Assembly (NCBI GenBank): GCA_947446885.1
Contig: CANFHZ010000007.1
Location: 1 to 48,310, forward strand
DNA from: Comamonadaceae bacterium
GTDB lineage: Bacteria; Pseudomonadota; Gammaproteobacteria; Burkholderiales; Burkholderiaceae_C
DNA: 48,310 nt
Direction of reading: 5' to 3'
Positions 16,584 to 21,661 of this stretch are shown in pieces. Numbering within the stretch: position 1 is the stretch's first letter; every line of letters begins with the position of its first letter. A model generated the notes under the pieces. It made no database searches. It was not told the DNA's origin and saw nothing but the letters and a program-made list of their open reading frames with translations. The position numbers and the translations under genes were made by a program.

Positions 16584-17888
16584 ATGTCCAAGGCCCTATC
16601 TCCATTGCCACCGCTGGCAGAGCGCCTGCGTCCCAAGTCCCTGGGTGAGGTGATCGGGCAGGCCCACGTCCTGGGTCCGGGTATGGCGCTGCGCCTTGCG
16701 TTCGAGTCGGGTCAGCCGCACAGCTGCATTTTGTGGGGACCGCCCGGCACCGGGAAAACCACGATTGCCCGGCTGATGGCCGACGCTTTTGATGCGCAAT
16801 TCATCACCATCAGTGCGGTGCTGGGTGGCGTCAAAGACATTCGCGACGCAGTGGAGCAGGCGCAGGCCGCGCGCGATGGTTTGGAGCGGCGTCGCACCCT
16901 GGTGTTTGTGGACGAGGTGCACCGCTTCAACAAAAGCCAGCAGGACGCCTTTTTGCCGCATGTGGAAAGCGGCTTGTTCACCTTTATCGGCGCGACCACC
17001 GAAAACCCATCGTTCGAGGTCAATTCGGCGCTGTTGTCGCGGGCGGCGGTATACGTCTTGCAGGCCCTGGGCGAGGATGACCTGGCGCAGATCGCGGAGC
17101 GGGCGCAGGCGATTGCCGCCGTGCCCGCCATGGACGCTGCTGCCACGGCGCGCCTGATCGCCTATGCCGATGGTGACGCCCGCCGCCTGCTCAATACCCT
17201 GGAGACCTTGGCAGTGGCGGCGGGCCAGGAAAAGCGCGCAACGATCGACGACAGCTGGCTGGTGCAGGTTCTGGGGGAGCGTCTGCGCCGCTACGACAAG
17301 GGGGGTGAGCAGTTTTACGACACCATTTCGGCCCTGCACAAAAGCGTGCGGGGCTCCGATCCGGATGCCGCCTTGTACTGGCTGGTTCGCATGCTGGACG
17401 GCGGGGCGGAACCACGCTACCTGGCACGCCGCCTGGTGCGCATGGCCAGCGAAGACATTGGACTGGCCGATCCGCGCGCGCTGCGCCTGGCGCTCGATGC
17501 GGCAGAGGTGTACGAGCGACTGGGTAGCCCCGAGGGGGAACTGGCCCTGGCGCAGTGCGTGGTGTATTTGGCGGTGGCACCCAAAAGCAACGCGGTCTAC
17601 AAGGCATTCAAAGAAGCCAAAGCCTTTATCAAGAAGGACGGAACGCGCCCAGTTCCGCTGCATTTGCGCAACGCGCCGACCCAGCTGATGAAAGACCTGG
17701 ACTACGGCACCCATTACCGCTATGCCCATGACGAGGTCGATGCATTCGCCGCCGGTGAAAACTATCTACCCGAGGGTATGGCGCCGCCCGGCTTTTACCG
17801 GCCCGTGCCGCGCGGGCTGGAATTGCGCATTGGAGAAAAACTGGAGGACCTGCGCCAGCGCAATGCGCAGGCCCGCAAACAGGGCTGA
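16584..17888 (+). CDS. rarA: Replication-associated recombination protein A (MgsA/WRNIP1 family)
   Basis: This 434-residue AAA+ ATPase acts at stalled replication forks. The opening 'PLAERLRPKSLGEVIGQAHVLGPG' is typical of clamp-loader-like ATPases. Walker A is 'LWGPPGTGKTTIARLMA', Walker B 'TLVFVDEVHRFNKSQQDAFLPHVE', and sensor 1 'FTFIGATTENPSFEVN'. The C-terminal tetramerisation region follows ('DTISALHKSVRGSDPDAALYWLVRMLDGG', 'LARRLVRMASEDIGLADP'). Length fits the family (about 440). It is the last gene of the ftsK-lolA-rarA run, and the following 206 bp hold the liv promoter region. Confidence 0.96.
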   Translation: MSKALSPLPPLAERLRPKSLGEVIGQAHVLGPGMALRLAFESGQPHSCILWGPPGTGKTTIARLMADAFDAQFITISAVLGGVKDIRDAVEQAQAARDGLERRRTLVFVDEVHRFNKSQQDAFLPHVESGLFTFIGATTENPSFEVNSALLSRAAVYVLQALGEDDLAQIAERAQAIAAVPAMDAAATARLIAYADGDARRLLNTLETLAVAAGQEKRATIDDSWLVQVLGERLRRYDKGGEQFYDTISALHKSVRGSDPDAALYWLVRMLDGGAEPRYLARRLVRMASEDIGLADPRALRLALDAAEVYERLGSPEGELALAQCVVYLAVAPKSNAVYKAFKEAKAFIKKDGTRPVPLHLRNAPTQLMKDLDYGTHYRYAHDEVDAFAAGENYLPEGMAPPGFYRPVPRGLELRIGEKLEDLRQRNAQARKQG

Positions 17889-17914
17889 ATCTTGGGGTTA
17901 ACCCGCTGGAAACG

Positions 17915-17931
17915 TGCACGGCACTGGTGCA
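17915..17931. promoter_or_regulatory. Candidate NtrC binding box upstream of livHMGF
   Basis: TGCACGGCACTGGTGCA (17 bp) matches the enteric NtrC consensus TGCACC-N4-TGGTGCA at every specified base except the sixth. Its centre is about 98 bp upstream of the start implied by the downstream sigma-54-like element, the usual range for an NtrC enhancer. A further TGCAC half-site lies at 17946-17950. The match is seen directly; binding is inferred. Confidence 0.55.
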
Positions 17932-17951
17932 ATTTCCGACGCGGCTGCACG

Positions 17952-17957
17952 TAGAAT
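17952..17957 (+). promoter_or_regulatory. Possible sigma-70 -10 element (TAGAAT) upstream of livH
   Basis: TAGAAT follows the TGCAC half-site. A promoter here would have its -35 region inside the candidate NtrC box, an arrangement like the two promoters of enteric glnA. The -35 match is poor. Confidence 0.3.
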
Positions 17958-17993
17958 CCGCCGCTTGCCCGCACATGCCTCTGCTTGGGGTGG

Positions 17994-18010
17994 CGGGCCG
18001 GGTTTTTGCT
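17994..18010 (+). promoter_or_regulatory. Candidate sigma-54 (-24/-12) promoter for livHMGF
   Basis: CGGGCCGGGTTTTTGCT keeps the two essential doublets with exact spacing: GG at 17996-17997 and GC at 18008-18009, ten bases between, with TTGCT at the -12 side. Compared with YTGGCACG-N4-TTGCW it matches 10 of 13 defined bases. The start would be near 18021, giving a leader of about 74 nt before livH. Confidence 0.42.
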
Positions 18011-18050: not shown

Positions 18051-18085
18051 CTGGGCTCCGAGATGCCCAGACAAGAACTTCGGAG
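18051..18085 (+). promoter_or_regulatory. Paired elements that could mask the livH ribosome binding site
   Basis: CTGGGC (18051-18056) can pair with GCCCAG (18065-18070). CTCCGA (18056-18061) can pair with TCGGAG (18080-18085), which contains the GGAG ribosome-binding core of livH. The second pairing would hide the Shine-Dalgarno sequence and competes with the first at base 18056. Seen in sequence; regulatory use is speculative. Confidence 0.3.
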
Positions 18086-18094
18086 AATTTTTCT

Positions 18095-19024
18095 ATGGAT
18101 ATTTTGGTACAGCAGATCATCAACGGTCTGGTGCTGGGCAGCATGTATGCGCTGATTGCACTGGGCTACACCATGGTGTACGGCATCATCAACCTGATCA
18201 ACTTTGCCCACGGCGAGGTGATGATGGTCGGGGCCTTGACGAGCTGGACCATGATTGGACTGATGAAAGAAGGTATGCCCGACGCGCCGGGCTGGCTGAT
18301 TTTGATGATTGCGCTGCTGATCGCCTGCGTGGTGGCCGCCGCGCTGAATTTTGTGATCGAAAAAGTCGCCTACCGCCCGCTGCGCAACAGCCCCAAGCTG
18401 GCCCCGCTGATCACCGCTATCGGCATGTCCATCCTGCTGCAAACCCTGGCCATGATCATCTGGAAGCCGAACTACAAGTCCTATCCCACCTTGCTGCCCA
18501 GTGATCCGTTTTTTATCGGTGAGGCGGTGATTACGCCGACGCAGGTGATGATTTTGGTGTTCACCGCTATTTCGCTGGCCACCCTGATGTGGGTGGTCAA
18601 CTCCACTAAATTGGGCCGTGCCATGCGCGCCACGGCGGAGAACCCCCGGGTCGCCGGCCTGATGGGTGTCAAGCCGGACATGGTGATCTCAGCGACTTTT
18701 GTGATCGGCGCGGTCTTGGCCGCGATTGCCGGGGTGATGTACGCATCCAACTACGGCACCGTGCAGCACGCGATGGGCTTTTTGCCTGGTTTGAAGGCAT
18801 TTACGGCAGCAGTGTTCGGTGGGATCGGCAATTTGCCAGGCGCGGTGGTCGGCGCAATTTTGCTGGGCTTGATCGAGTCCATTGGCGCGGGCTATATCGG
18901 CGCGCTCACCGGGGGCGTTTTGGGTAGCCACTACTCCGATATTTTTGCTTTCATCGTGCTCATCATCGTGCTCACGCTGCGCCCATCGGGACTGCTGGGC
19001 GAACGTGTGGCCGATCGTGCCTGA
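18095..19024 (+). CDS. livH: Branched-chain amino-acid ABC transporter permease LivH
   Basis: This 309-residue inner-membrane permease of the HAAT family begins 'MDILVQQIINGLVLGSMYALIALGYTMVYGIINLINFAHGEVMMVGA', the diagnostic LivH N-terminus. It has about eight hydrophobic helices and ends 'LIIVLTLRPSGLLGE'. The cytoplasmic loop 'STKLGRAMRATAENPRVAGLMGV' contacts the ATPases. The track ORF starts 56 codons upstream; ATG 18095 is preferred because CGGAG lies nine bases before it and the family begins there. It is the first gene of livH-livM-livG-livF. No periplasmic binding protein gene (livJ/livK) is in the window, so the substrate (branched-chain amino acids, or amides/urea as in relatives) is not fixed. 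Confidence 0.95.
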   Translation: MDILVQQIINGLVLGSMYALIALGYTMVYGIINLINFAHGEVMMVGALTSWTMIGLMKEGMPDAPGWLILMIALLIACVVAAALNFVIEKVAYRPLRNSPKLAPLITAIGMSILLQTLAMIIWKPNYKSYPTLLPSDPFFIGEAVITPTQVMILVFTAISLATLMWVVNSTKLGRAMRATAENPRVAGLMGVKPDMVISATFVIGAVLAAIAGVMYASNYGTVQHAMGFLPGLKAFTAAVFGGIGNLPGAVVGAILLGLIESIGAGYIGALTGGVLGSHYSDIFAFIVLIIVLTLRPSGLLGERVADRA

Positions 19025-19036
19025 GGACCTCAGAAC

Positions 19037-20128
19037 ATGAACTTCAAAAACAATCTGCCTGCGCAACTGGCTGCCGGTGTCGCGCTGCTCGCACTGCCTT
19101 TGGTACTGCAACTGTTCGGTAATGCCTGGGTTCGTATTGCCGACATGACGCTGCTTTTTGTGCTGCTGTCGATAGGCCTGAATATTGTGGTGGGCTACGC
19201 TGGCTTGCTGGATCTCGGCTATGTGGCATTTTTTGCCATTGGAGCCTACGTCTACGGCCTGCTCAATTCCCCGCATTTGCTGGAGACTTTTGCTGGGCTG
19301 GCTGCCATGTATCCACAGGGATTGCACACCCCGATTTGGGTAGTCCTGCCCTTGGCTGCGGTGGTCGCCGGCATATTCGGCGTATTGCTGGGTGCGCCCA
19401 CGTTGCGGCTGCGCGGCGACTACCTGGCCATTGTGACGCTGGGCTTTGGCGAGATCATCCGGGTGTTCTTGAACAATATGGACAACCCGTACAACATCAC
19501 CAACGGGCCCAAAGGTGTGAGCCAGATTGATCCGTTGAATTTCTTCGGTTTGGATTTGGGCAAAAAACTGATGATCGGTGACTACAAGCTGGCTTCGGTC
19601 TCGCTGTATTACTACCTGTTTTTGGCCCTGGTGCTGCTGAGCATCGTGATTTCGCACCGCCTGGAAGTCTCCCGCATCGGCCGCGCCTGGATGGCCATCC
19701 GCGAAGATGAAATCGCCGCCAAGGCCATGGGTATCAACACCCGCAACCTCAAGCTCACAGCGTTCGGCATGGGTGCCACCTTTGGCGGCGTGTCGGGCGC
19801 GCTGTTTGCCTCCTTCCAGGGCTTTATTTCCCCCGAGTCGTTCACGCTGATGGAGTCGGTGATGATTGTCGCCATGGTGGTGCTCGGCGGTGTCGGCCAT
19901 CTGCCCGGCGTGGTGCTGGGTGCGGTGTTGCTGGCATCGCTGCCGGAAGTGCTGCGCTATGTGGCCGGGCCGCTGCAACAGCTCTCTGGTGGGCGTCTGG
20001 ATGCGTCCATCCTGCGCCAGTTGCTGATTGCCCTGGCCATGATTAGCGTGATGCTGCTGCGCCCACGCGGCCTATGGCCCTCGCCAGACCACGGTAAATC
20101 CTTGATCAACTCCGCCAAACCGGCCTGA
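19037..20128 (+). CDS. livM: Branched-chain amino-acid ABC transporter permease LivM
   Basis: This 363-residue partner permease of LivH has the LivM signature 'LNIVVGYAGLLDLGYVAFFAIGAYVYGLL'. The coupling loop is 'VSRIGRAWMAIREDEIAAKAMGINTRNLKLTAFGMGATFGGVSGALFA', and the last helix ends 'MLLRPRGLWP'. An unusually long stretch between the first helices ('NSPHLLETFAGLAAMYPQGLHTPIW') probably faces the periplasm. It starts 12 bp after livH and is followed after 21 bp by livG, so co-transcription is very likely. Confidence 0.95.
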   Translation: MNFKNNLPAQLAAGVALLALPLVLQLFGNAWVRIADMTLLFVLLSIGLNIVVGYAGLLDLGYVAFFAIGAYVYGLLNSPHLLETFAGLAAMYPQGLHTPIWVVLPLAAVVAGIFGVLLGAPTLRLRGDYLAIVTLGFGEIIRVFLNNMDNPYNITNGPKGVSQIDPLNFFGLDLGKKLMIGDYKLASVSLYYYLFLALVLLSIVISHRLEVSRIGRAWMAIREDEIAAKAMGINTRNLKLTAFGMGATFGGVSGALFASFQGFISPESFTLMESVMIVAMVVLGGVGHLPGVVLGAVLLASLPEVLRYVAGPLQQLSGGRLDASILRQLLIALAMISVMLLRPRGLWPSPDHGKSLINSAKPA

Positions 20129-20149
20129 TTGCGCTGTACCGGAAACCCT

Positions 20150-20920
20150 ATGACAGACACAGTATTGAACGTAAGTGGCGTCTCCAAGCGCTTTGGCGGC
20201 TTGCAGGCGCTCAGCGATGTGGGCATCCGCATCGAGCGGGGACAGGTTTACGGCCTGATCGGTCCCAACGGCGCAGGGAAAACCACATTTTTCAACGTGC
20301 TCACCGGTTTGTACACCCCCGACAGCGGTCGCTTCGAGTTGGCCGGTCAGGCCTATCAGCCCACCGCAGTCCATACGGTGGCGATGGCCGGTATCGCGCG
20401 TACCTTTCAAAATATCCGCTTATTTGCGGAGATGACGGCCTTAGAAAACGTAATGGTCGGTCGGCATATCCGCACCCAGAGCGGCTTGCTCGGCGCCGTT
20501 TTCCGCACCCAGAGTTTTTTGGCCGAAGAAAAAGCCATTGCGGCGCGCGCGCAGGAGCTACTCGAATACGTGGGTATAGGCCAGTTCGCAGACTACAAAG
20601 CCCGTACCCTGAGCTACGGCGACCAGCGCCGCCTGGAAATCGCCCGCGCCTTGGCTACCGACCCGCAGCTGATTGCGCTGGACGAGCCGGCCGCTGGCAT
20701 GAACGCCACCGAGAAAGTCATGCTGCGCGAACTGATTGACCGCATCCGCAAGGACAACCGCACGATTTTGCTCATCGAGCACGACGTCAAGCTCGTCATG
20801 GGCTTGTGTGACCGGGTGACGGTGCTGGATTACGGCAAACAAATTGCCGAAGGCACGCCCGCCGAGGTGCAAAAAAACCAGGCCGTGATCGAAGCCTACC
20901 TCGGCACCGCCGCACACTGA
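20150..20920 (+). CDS. livG: Branched-chain amino-acid ABC transporter ATP-binding protein LivG
   Basis: This 256-residue ABC ATPase has Walker A 'GLIGPNGAGKTTFFNVLTG', Q-loop 'GIARTFQNIRLFAEMTALENVMVG', signature 'TLSYGDQRRLEIARALA' and Walker B 'LIALDEPAAGMNATE', with H-loop 'ILLIEHDVKLVMGLCDRVTVLDYGKQIAEGTP'. The LSYGDQRR signature and the A-A-G-M-N element are typical of LivG. ATG 20150 is used rather than the TTG at 20129 because MTDTVLNVSGVSKRFGG is the family N-terminus and GGAAACCC precedes it. It pairs with LivF on the cytoplasmic face of LivHM. Confidence 0.96.
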   Translation: MTDTVLNVSGVSKRFGGLQALSDVGIRIERGQVYGLIGPNGAGKTTFFNVLTGLYTPDSGRFELAGQAYQPTAVHTVAMAGIARTFQNIRLFAEMTALENVMVGRHIRTQSGLLGAVFRTQSFLAEEKAIAARAQELLEYVGIGQFADYKARTLSYGDQRRLEIARALATDPQLIALDEPAAGMNATEKVMLRELIDRIRKDNRTILLIEHDVKLVMGLCDRVTVLDYGKQIAEGTPAEVQKNQAVIEAYLGTAAH

Positions 20921-20941: not shown

Positions 20942-21661
20942 ATGACATCTCCCATCCTGCTCAAAGTCAGTGGCCTGCAAGTGGCCTACGGTGGCATTCA
21001 GGCCGTCAAAGGCGTTGATTTCGAGGTTCGCGAAGGCGAACTGGTCTCCCTCATCGGCTCCAACGGTGCGGGTAAGACCACCACCATGAAAGCCATCACC
21101 GGAACCCTGCCCATCCACGCCGGTGACATCCAGTACCTGGGTAAAAGCATTAAAGGGCAGGGGCCCTGGGATCTGGTGCGCCAAGGCCTGGCCATGGTGC
21201 CCGAAGGTCGGGGCGTATTCACGCGCATGACCATCGTCGAGAACCTGCAAATGGGTGCCTACATCCGCGACGATGATGCCGAGATTGCCCGCGATATGGA
21301 CAAAATGTTTGCCATCTTCCCGCGCCTTCAGGAGCGGCGTGCACAGCTCGCCGGAACCATGTCGGGTGGCGAGCAGCAAATGCTGGCGATGGCGCGCGCG
21401 CTCATGAGCCGACCTAAAGTGCTGCTCATGGACGAGCCTTCGATGGGCTTGTCGCCTTTGATGGTGGACAAGATTTTCGAAGTGGTACGCGATGTTTTCG
21501 CGCAGGGTGTCACTGTCTTGCTGGTGGAGCAAAACGCCAGCCGGGCCTTGTCCATCGCGAACCGCGGTTACGTGATGGAGTCCGGTCTGATCACCATGAC
21601 CGGTGACGCCAAAACCATGCTCAACGACCCCAAAGTGCGCGCCGCCTACCTGGGCGAATAA
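20942..21661 (+). CDS. livF: Branched-chain amino-acid ABC transporter ATP-binding protein LivF
   Basis: This 239-residue ABC ATPase has Walker A 'LIGSNGAGKTTTMKAITG' and the LivF-specific 'GLAMVPEGRGVFTRMTIVENLQMGAY'. The signature is 'GTMSGGEQQMLAMARALM', Walker B 'VLLMDEPSMGLSPLMVDKIFEVV' and the switch region 'VLLVEQNASRALSIANRGYVMESG'. It is the last Liv subunit. An EamA transporter starts nine bases after its stop, probably in the same transcript. Confidence 0.96.
   Translation: MTSPILLKVSGLQVAYGGIQAVKGVDFEVREGELVSLIGSNGAGKTTTMKAITGTLPIHAGDIQYLGKSIKGQGPWDLVRQGLAMVPEGRGVFTRMTIVENLQMGAYIRDDDAEIARDMDKMFAIFPRLQERRAQLAGTMSGGEQQMLAMARALMSRPKVLLMDEPSMGLSPLMVDKIFEVVRDVFAQGVTVLLVEQNASRALSIANRGYVMESGLITMTGDAKTMLNDPKVRAAYLGE

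Follow-up and report, generated by a model that had tools for sequence, protein, structure and literature searches.

The control region upstream of livHMGF in a Comamonadaceae bacterium: a conserved palindrome, a leader hairpin element and a private NtrC-like box

Introduction

Is the livHMGF operon of a Comamonadaceae bacterium under nitrogen control? The question is raised by the intergenic region between a rarA-like gene and livH on a 48,310-nucleotide stretch of DNA (the window; assembly GCA_947446885.1, contig CANFHZ010000007.1). An original prediction, made from the letters of the window, had placed there an NtrC box and a GG-N10-GC string of the sigma-54 type with a TAGAAT -10 box between them. 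This arrangement was read as a glnA-like dual promoter, which would make the liv system a nitrogen-scavenging uptake operon. Among the papers searched, no report linking livH with NtrC and RpoN was found. In B. cenocepacia, which belongs to a different genus, the NtrC regulon table includes a single ATP-binding gene for branched-chain amino-acid transport, at -2.4; no site data accompany it (PMC5491218).

On comparison with relatives, this attractive but weak argument for nitrogen control fell away. What emerged instead was a control region for the uptake of branched-chain amino acids across Comamonadaceae that is sharply delimited and open to test: a single-target palindrome with helical phasing, and a leader element that is conserved. 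Identifying the regulator of the palindrome would explain the control of amino-acid uptake in common freshwater bacteria.

Results

The four genes downstream of the intergenic region resemble the high-affinity branched-chain amino acid ABC transporter LivHMGF in gene order and in their best matches (LivH, LivM, LivG and LivF). They differ from it in that their scores lie under the NCBIfam equivalog cut-offs and in that no binding-protein gene is adjacent to the operon. The features of the region are listed in Table 1.

Table 1. Position, strand and basis of assignment of the features discussed, numbered along the window.
Feature	Position	Strand	Basis and remarks
rarA-like AAA ATPase, upstream gene	16584..17888	+	ORF; best named match is a RarA-type AAA ATPase
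Palindrome GGGTTAACCC (family form GGGTAAACCC)	17895..17904	.	Conservation and spacing; gap to the -10 is 47 bp
NtrC-like box TGCACGGCACTGGTGCA, private to this genome	17915..17931	.	Sequence and comparison with relatives
TAGAAT, conserved sigma-70-type -10 (TASAATC in relatives), without conserved -35	17952..17957	+	Comparison with relatives
Leader hairpin GCCCGC...GCGGGC	17967..17998	+	Fold and relatives; expected start just upstream, ~17964
TGGCGGGCCGGGTTTTTGCT, homologue of the conserved TGGCRGGTTTTTTGCTA (hairpin 3' arm and T-tract, -24/-12 layout)	17991..18010	+	Comparison with relatives; includes the predicted sigma-54 string
CTCCGAG...CTTCGGAG, possible hairpin	18056..18085	+	By eye and stem listing, window only
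livH, permease	18095..19024	+	ORF and best family match; start is ATG 18095
livM, permease	19037..20128	+	ORF and best family match
livG, ATPase	20129..20920	+	ORF and best family match; likely start 20150
livF, ATPase	20942..21661	+	ORF and best family match

The predicted NtrC box is present in the window, with one mismatch to TGCACCN5GGTGCA, and the arithmetic that centred it near -98 of the sigma-54 start was correct. The window contained four matches to TGCACN6GGTGCA at up to one mismatch, two places each counted on both strands, where 2.8 would be expected. In the genome the exact box pattern occurred in only three places: upstream of livH, at glnA, and next to a rubrerythrin-like ORF, either within its upstream end or immediately before it. 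The GG-N10-GC string was also found, as CGGGCCGGGTTTTTGCT at 17994-18010 (with GGGCCGGGTTTTTGCT at 17995-18010). It has three mismatches to TGGCACGN4TTGCW, and the window held 110 such matches compared with 128 in shuffles. On sequence alone, neither the box nor the string goes beyond chance.

The region was compared with 80 livH loci from other genomes (79 usable) and with a second set of one livH upstream region per genus from 80 genera; counts across these relatives are of sequences with shared ancestry and not of independent trials. An NtrC box at up to one mismatch was found in none of the 79 related livH upstream regions and in 1 of the 80 genera, where it was differently placed (36 bp before livH). 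At up to two mismatches it was found in 2 of 79 loci and 1 of 80 genera, where shuffles averaged 1.35 and 1.7, respectively. The best boxes of the three nearest relatives (L040-L042), whose livH is 97-99% identical, had 3, 5 and 4 mismatches. The box was therefore in no relative, the three nearest included; it is probably a private near-match of chance origin, and the comparison gives no support for NtrC control of livH.

As a positive control, the NtrC/sigma-54 test was repeated at glnA in 19 genomes of the same genus, this one included. All 19 had an NtrC box at up to two mismatches, and a TGGCA[CT]-N6-TGC sigma-54 promoter lay ~62-74 bp before glnA in every one of them, so the method does see such regions where they are present. 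In this genome the glnA box lies beside a TATAAT region (L002 1501-1517, contig C21), and the sigma-54 promoter TGGCATAGAAACTGCT, kept across the genus, is at ~1626-1641 of L002. The livH region shares with the glnA control region of enteric bacteria and of this genome a sigma-70-like -10, an NtrC-like box and a GG-N10-GC string within one intergenic region. It differs in that the glnA box and promoter are conserved in 19/19 genomes, whereas the livH box is private and the livH string disrupted. The genome encodes RpoN (one rpoN), and an NtrB-NtrC pair, with an NtrC score above the family cut-off, sits on the glnA contig. With RpoN, NtrB and NtrC all present, the idea of nitrogen control was a reasonable one.

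The TAGAAT box proved real and conserved family-wide. Its conserved form before livH is TSGCTASAATC, and no conservation was seen in the -35 region. In the clade of the window the TSGC ahead of the -10 is altered and the gap between the palindrome and the -10 is 47. The palindrome itself begins 6 bp after the stop codon of the rarA-like gene. Its family form GGGTAAACCC was exact in 25 of 80 genera (shuffles 0) and present at up to one mismatch in 51 of 80 (shuffles 0.55). Among 106 distinct spacers the gap from palindrome to -10 was 35-37 in 90, 45-47 in 14, 27 in one and 58 in one; one further locus (L167) had a gap of 38. The gap classes differ by steps of about one helical turn, as predicted for a protein that always binds the same side of the helix. 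The combined pattern of palindrome and -10 occurred at most once per genome, in 18 of 37 and in 45 of 401 genomes, with zero control matches. All 47 of the 47 loci inspected lay 104-222 bp before livH on the same strand. That the palindrome belongs to a terminator of the upstream gene was considered and rejected, since it keeps a fixed spacing from the -10 rather than from that gene.

Other places with the pattern GGGTWWACCC in this genome (nine in all) gave no clear shared regulon. Elsewhere, in L121 and L128, GGGTAAACCC was flanked by a nitronate-monooxygenase-like ORF and an MsbA-like ABC transporter, each assigned by eye. These loci, at the ends of contigs C10 and C139, have one sequence in common, in opposite orientations, and so look like overlapping ends of one locus. 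GGGTTAACCC was also seen upstream of a peroxiredoxin-like ORF, again by eye (L122 1501-1510). Among the papers listed in literature searches, none relevant to GGGTAAACCC, GGGTTTACCC or GGGTTAACCC as a bacterial operator was found.

In relatives the expected transcript starts almost directly with a hairpin, typically AACCCGCC...TGGCGGGTTTTTTGCTA, followed by a T-tract. Other versions were ACCTGCC/GGCAGGT, CCCCGCC/GGCGGGG and AATCGGC/GCCGATT, and compensatory stem changes were found in most leaders. The relatives' leaders have the shape of an intrinsic terminator, a GC-rich stem directly followed by a T-tract. In the window CGGG stands between stem and T-tract, unless an extended stem forms. An Rfam scan of the window region and 18 leaders gave no family over the gathering score. 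Many genera (leaders L206-L265) carry a second conserved leader motif, GCYCACAAGGC, a short GCC/GGC hairpin ~10-25 nt past TTGCTA; it was not seen in the window.

The sigma-54-like string coincides with the 3' arm of this hairpin and its T-tract, an overlap that the original prediction had missed. TGGC-N7-TTGCT is conserved in 41 of 80 genera, and its spacing is disrupted in the window, where the ancestral TGGC (17991-17994) and the TTGC (18006-18009) are pushed apart by 4-5 inserted bp. The GG-N10-GC of the window consequently uses another GG than that of the relatives. In the three nearest relatives the whole TGGCRGGTTTTTTGCTA-type element is absent.

Across the family, an exact GG-N10-GC was found in 31 of 34 leader terminators and in 3 of 150 other terminators from the same DNA. 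In a sequence logo, the rows of which were chosen by similarity to the motif, conservation had abrupt limits at TGGC and TTGCTA. In the 11 genera (of 40) whose hairpin partner is unable to pair, the first G was kept in 11 of 11 and the T in 10 of 11. The -24/-12 layout is thus conserved beyond the needs of base pairing, and a sigma-54 role across the family is possible. None of 78 loci showed TGGCAC at the liv-leader position, whereas the glnA promoter retains TGGCA[CT]. Six loci (L073, L214, L219, L223, L243 and L257) kept hairpin and T-tract and lost the GG, the GC or their spacing; in L257 a compensatory change preserves the stem and abolishes the GG. Of 75 genomes, 72 gave a match to rpoN; the three without one include fragmented drafts, so loss of rpoN is uninformative as a test of sigma-54 dependence.

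Discussion

We consider it fairly probable that livHMGF has a sigma-70-type promoter served by a protein at GGGTAAACCC, the candidate regulator, together with a leader hairpin that has decayed in this clade. Transcription would be directed by the conserved TAGAAT, in a promoter that lacks a -35, and start near 17964. The promoter would depend on a putative DNA-binding protein at GGGTTAACCC, most likely an activator. The transcript would open with the hairpin and T-tract, which probably attenuate or pause early transcription and have a good intrinsic-terminator shape in the relatives, decayed here. The NtrC-like box would then be a private near-match, probably of chance origin, and the sigma-54-like string the decayed 3' portion of that hairpin. 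The comparison shows the conservation and spacing of the elements, their specificity for livH and the covariation of the hairpin; the activator role, the start site and attenuation are inferred from these. With its gap of 47 and changed TSGC, the copy in the window may work differently from those of its relatives. Leader attenuators are known for amino-acid operons such as leu and ilv, and the livH leader is like them in having a hairpin and then a T-tract in an untranslated leader. It is unlike them in that its T-tract comes ~40 nt after the expected start, which leaves too little space for a leader peptide. A T-tract at 40 nt is unusual for an attenuator and speaks against this explanation, as does the conservation of the TGGC and GCTA edges beyond pairing, which the hairpin alone does not account for.

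These edges also weigh on another account of the element, in which it is an intrinsic terminator or pause hairpin only and GCTA serves pausing or release of RNA polymerase. The covarying stem with its T-tract and the compensatory change in L257 agree with this account, whereas the asymmetric conservation of TGGC, like that of GCTA, does not; we regard it as a real possibility, if short of probable. The same edges, the enrichment of GG-N10-GC in leader terminators, the G and T kept without a pairing partner and the wide occurrence of rpoN would fit a family-wide dual promoter. There, TGGCRGGTTTTTTGCTA would be a true sigma-54 core promoter in most Comamonadaceae, located downstream of the sigma-70 promoter and under an enhancer-binding protein independent of any conserved NtrC box, and the copy in the window would be degraded. 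No conserved enhancer site at a fixed position goes with it, TGGCAC is missing where glnA has TGGCA[CT], and six loci keep hairpin and T-tract at the expense of the layout; this reading is doubtful, though not implausible. A specific form of it appears unlikely to us: the leader terminator hairpin would double as a sigma-54 core promoter in Comamonadaceae, 3' arm and T-tract acting as -24 and -12, downstream of a sigma-70 promoter under a liv-specific candidate regulator at GGGTAAACCC. If it were true, one sequence would serve the termination of one transcript and the initiation of another.

It is very improbable that a sigma-54 promoter at 17994-18010 is activated by NtrC bound to 17915-17931 and that liv is a nitrogen-scavenging operon here. 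The box is well placed and one base off consensus, its regulators are encoded, and a new box could be a recent gain in this lineage. However, no relative has it, yet these genomes do keep a box at glnA; the -24 reads GGGCCG, unlike the TGGCA[CT] of glnA; and the spacing to the ancestral TGGC is broken in an element that the three nearest relatives lack. The central claim of the original prediction, an NtrC enhancer that makes this a nitrogen-scavenging operon, did not survive the comparison, with its box private and its sigma-54 spacing broken, and nitrogen control of the liv operon is judged unlikely from the conservation pattern. The glnA-like dual promoter fared better in part. Its -10 is conserved, and its sigma-54-like string is homologous to the family-wide -24/-12 element, which gives the idea some substance.

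Closer to livH, the possible hairpin CTCCGAG...CTTCGGAG could fold across GGAG, the ribosome-binding site of that gene.
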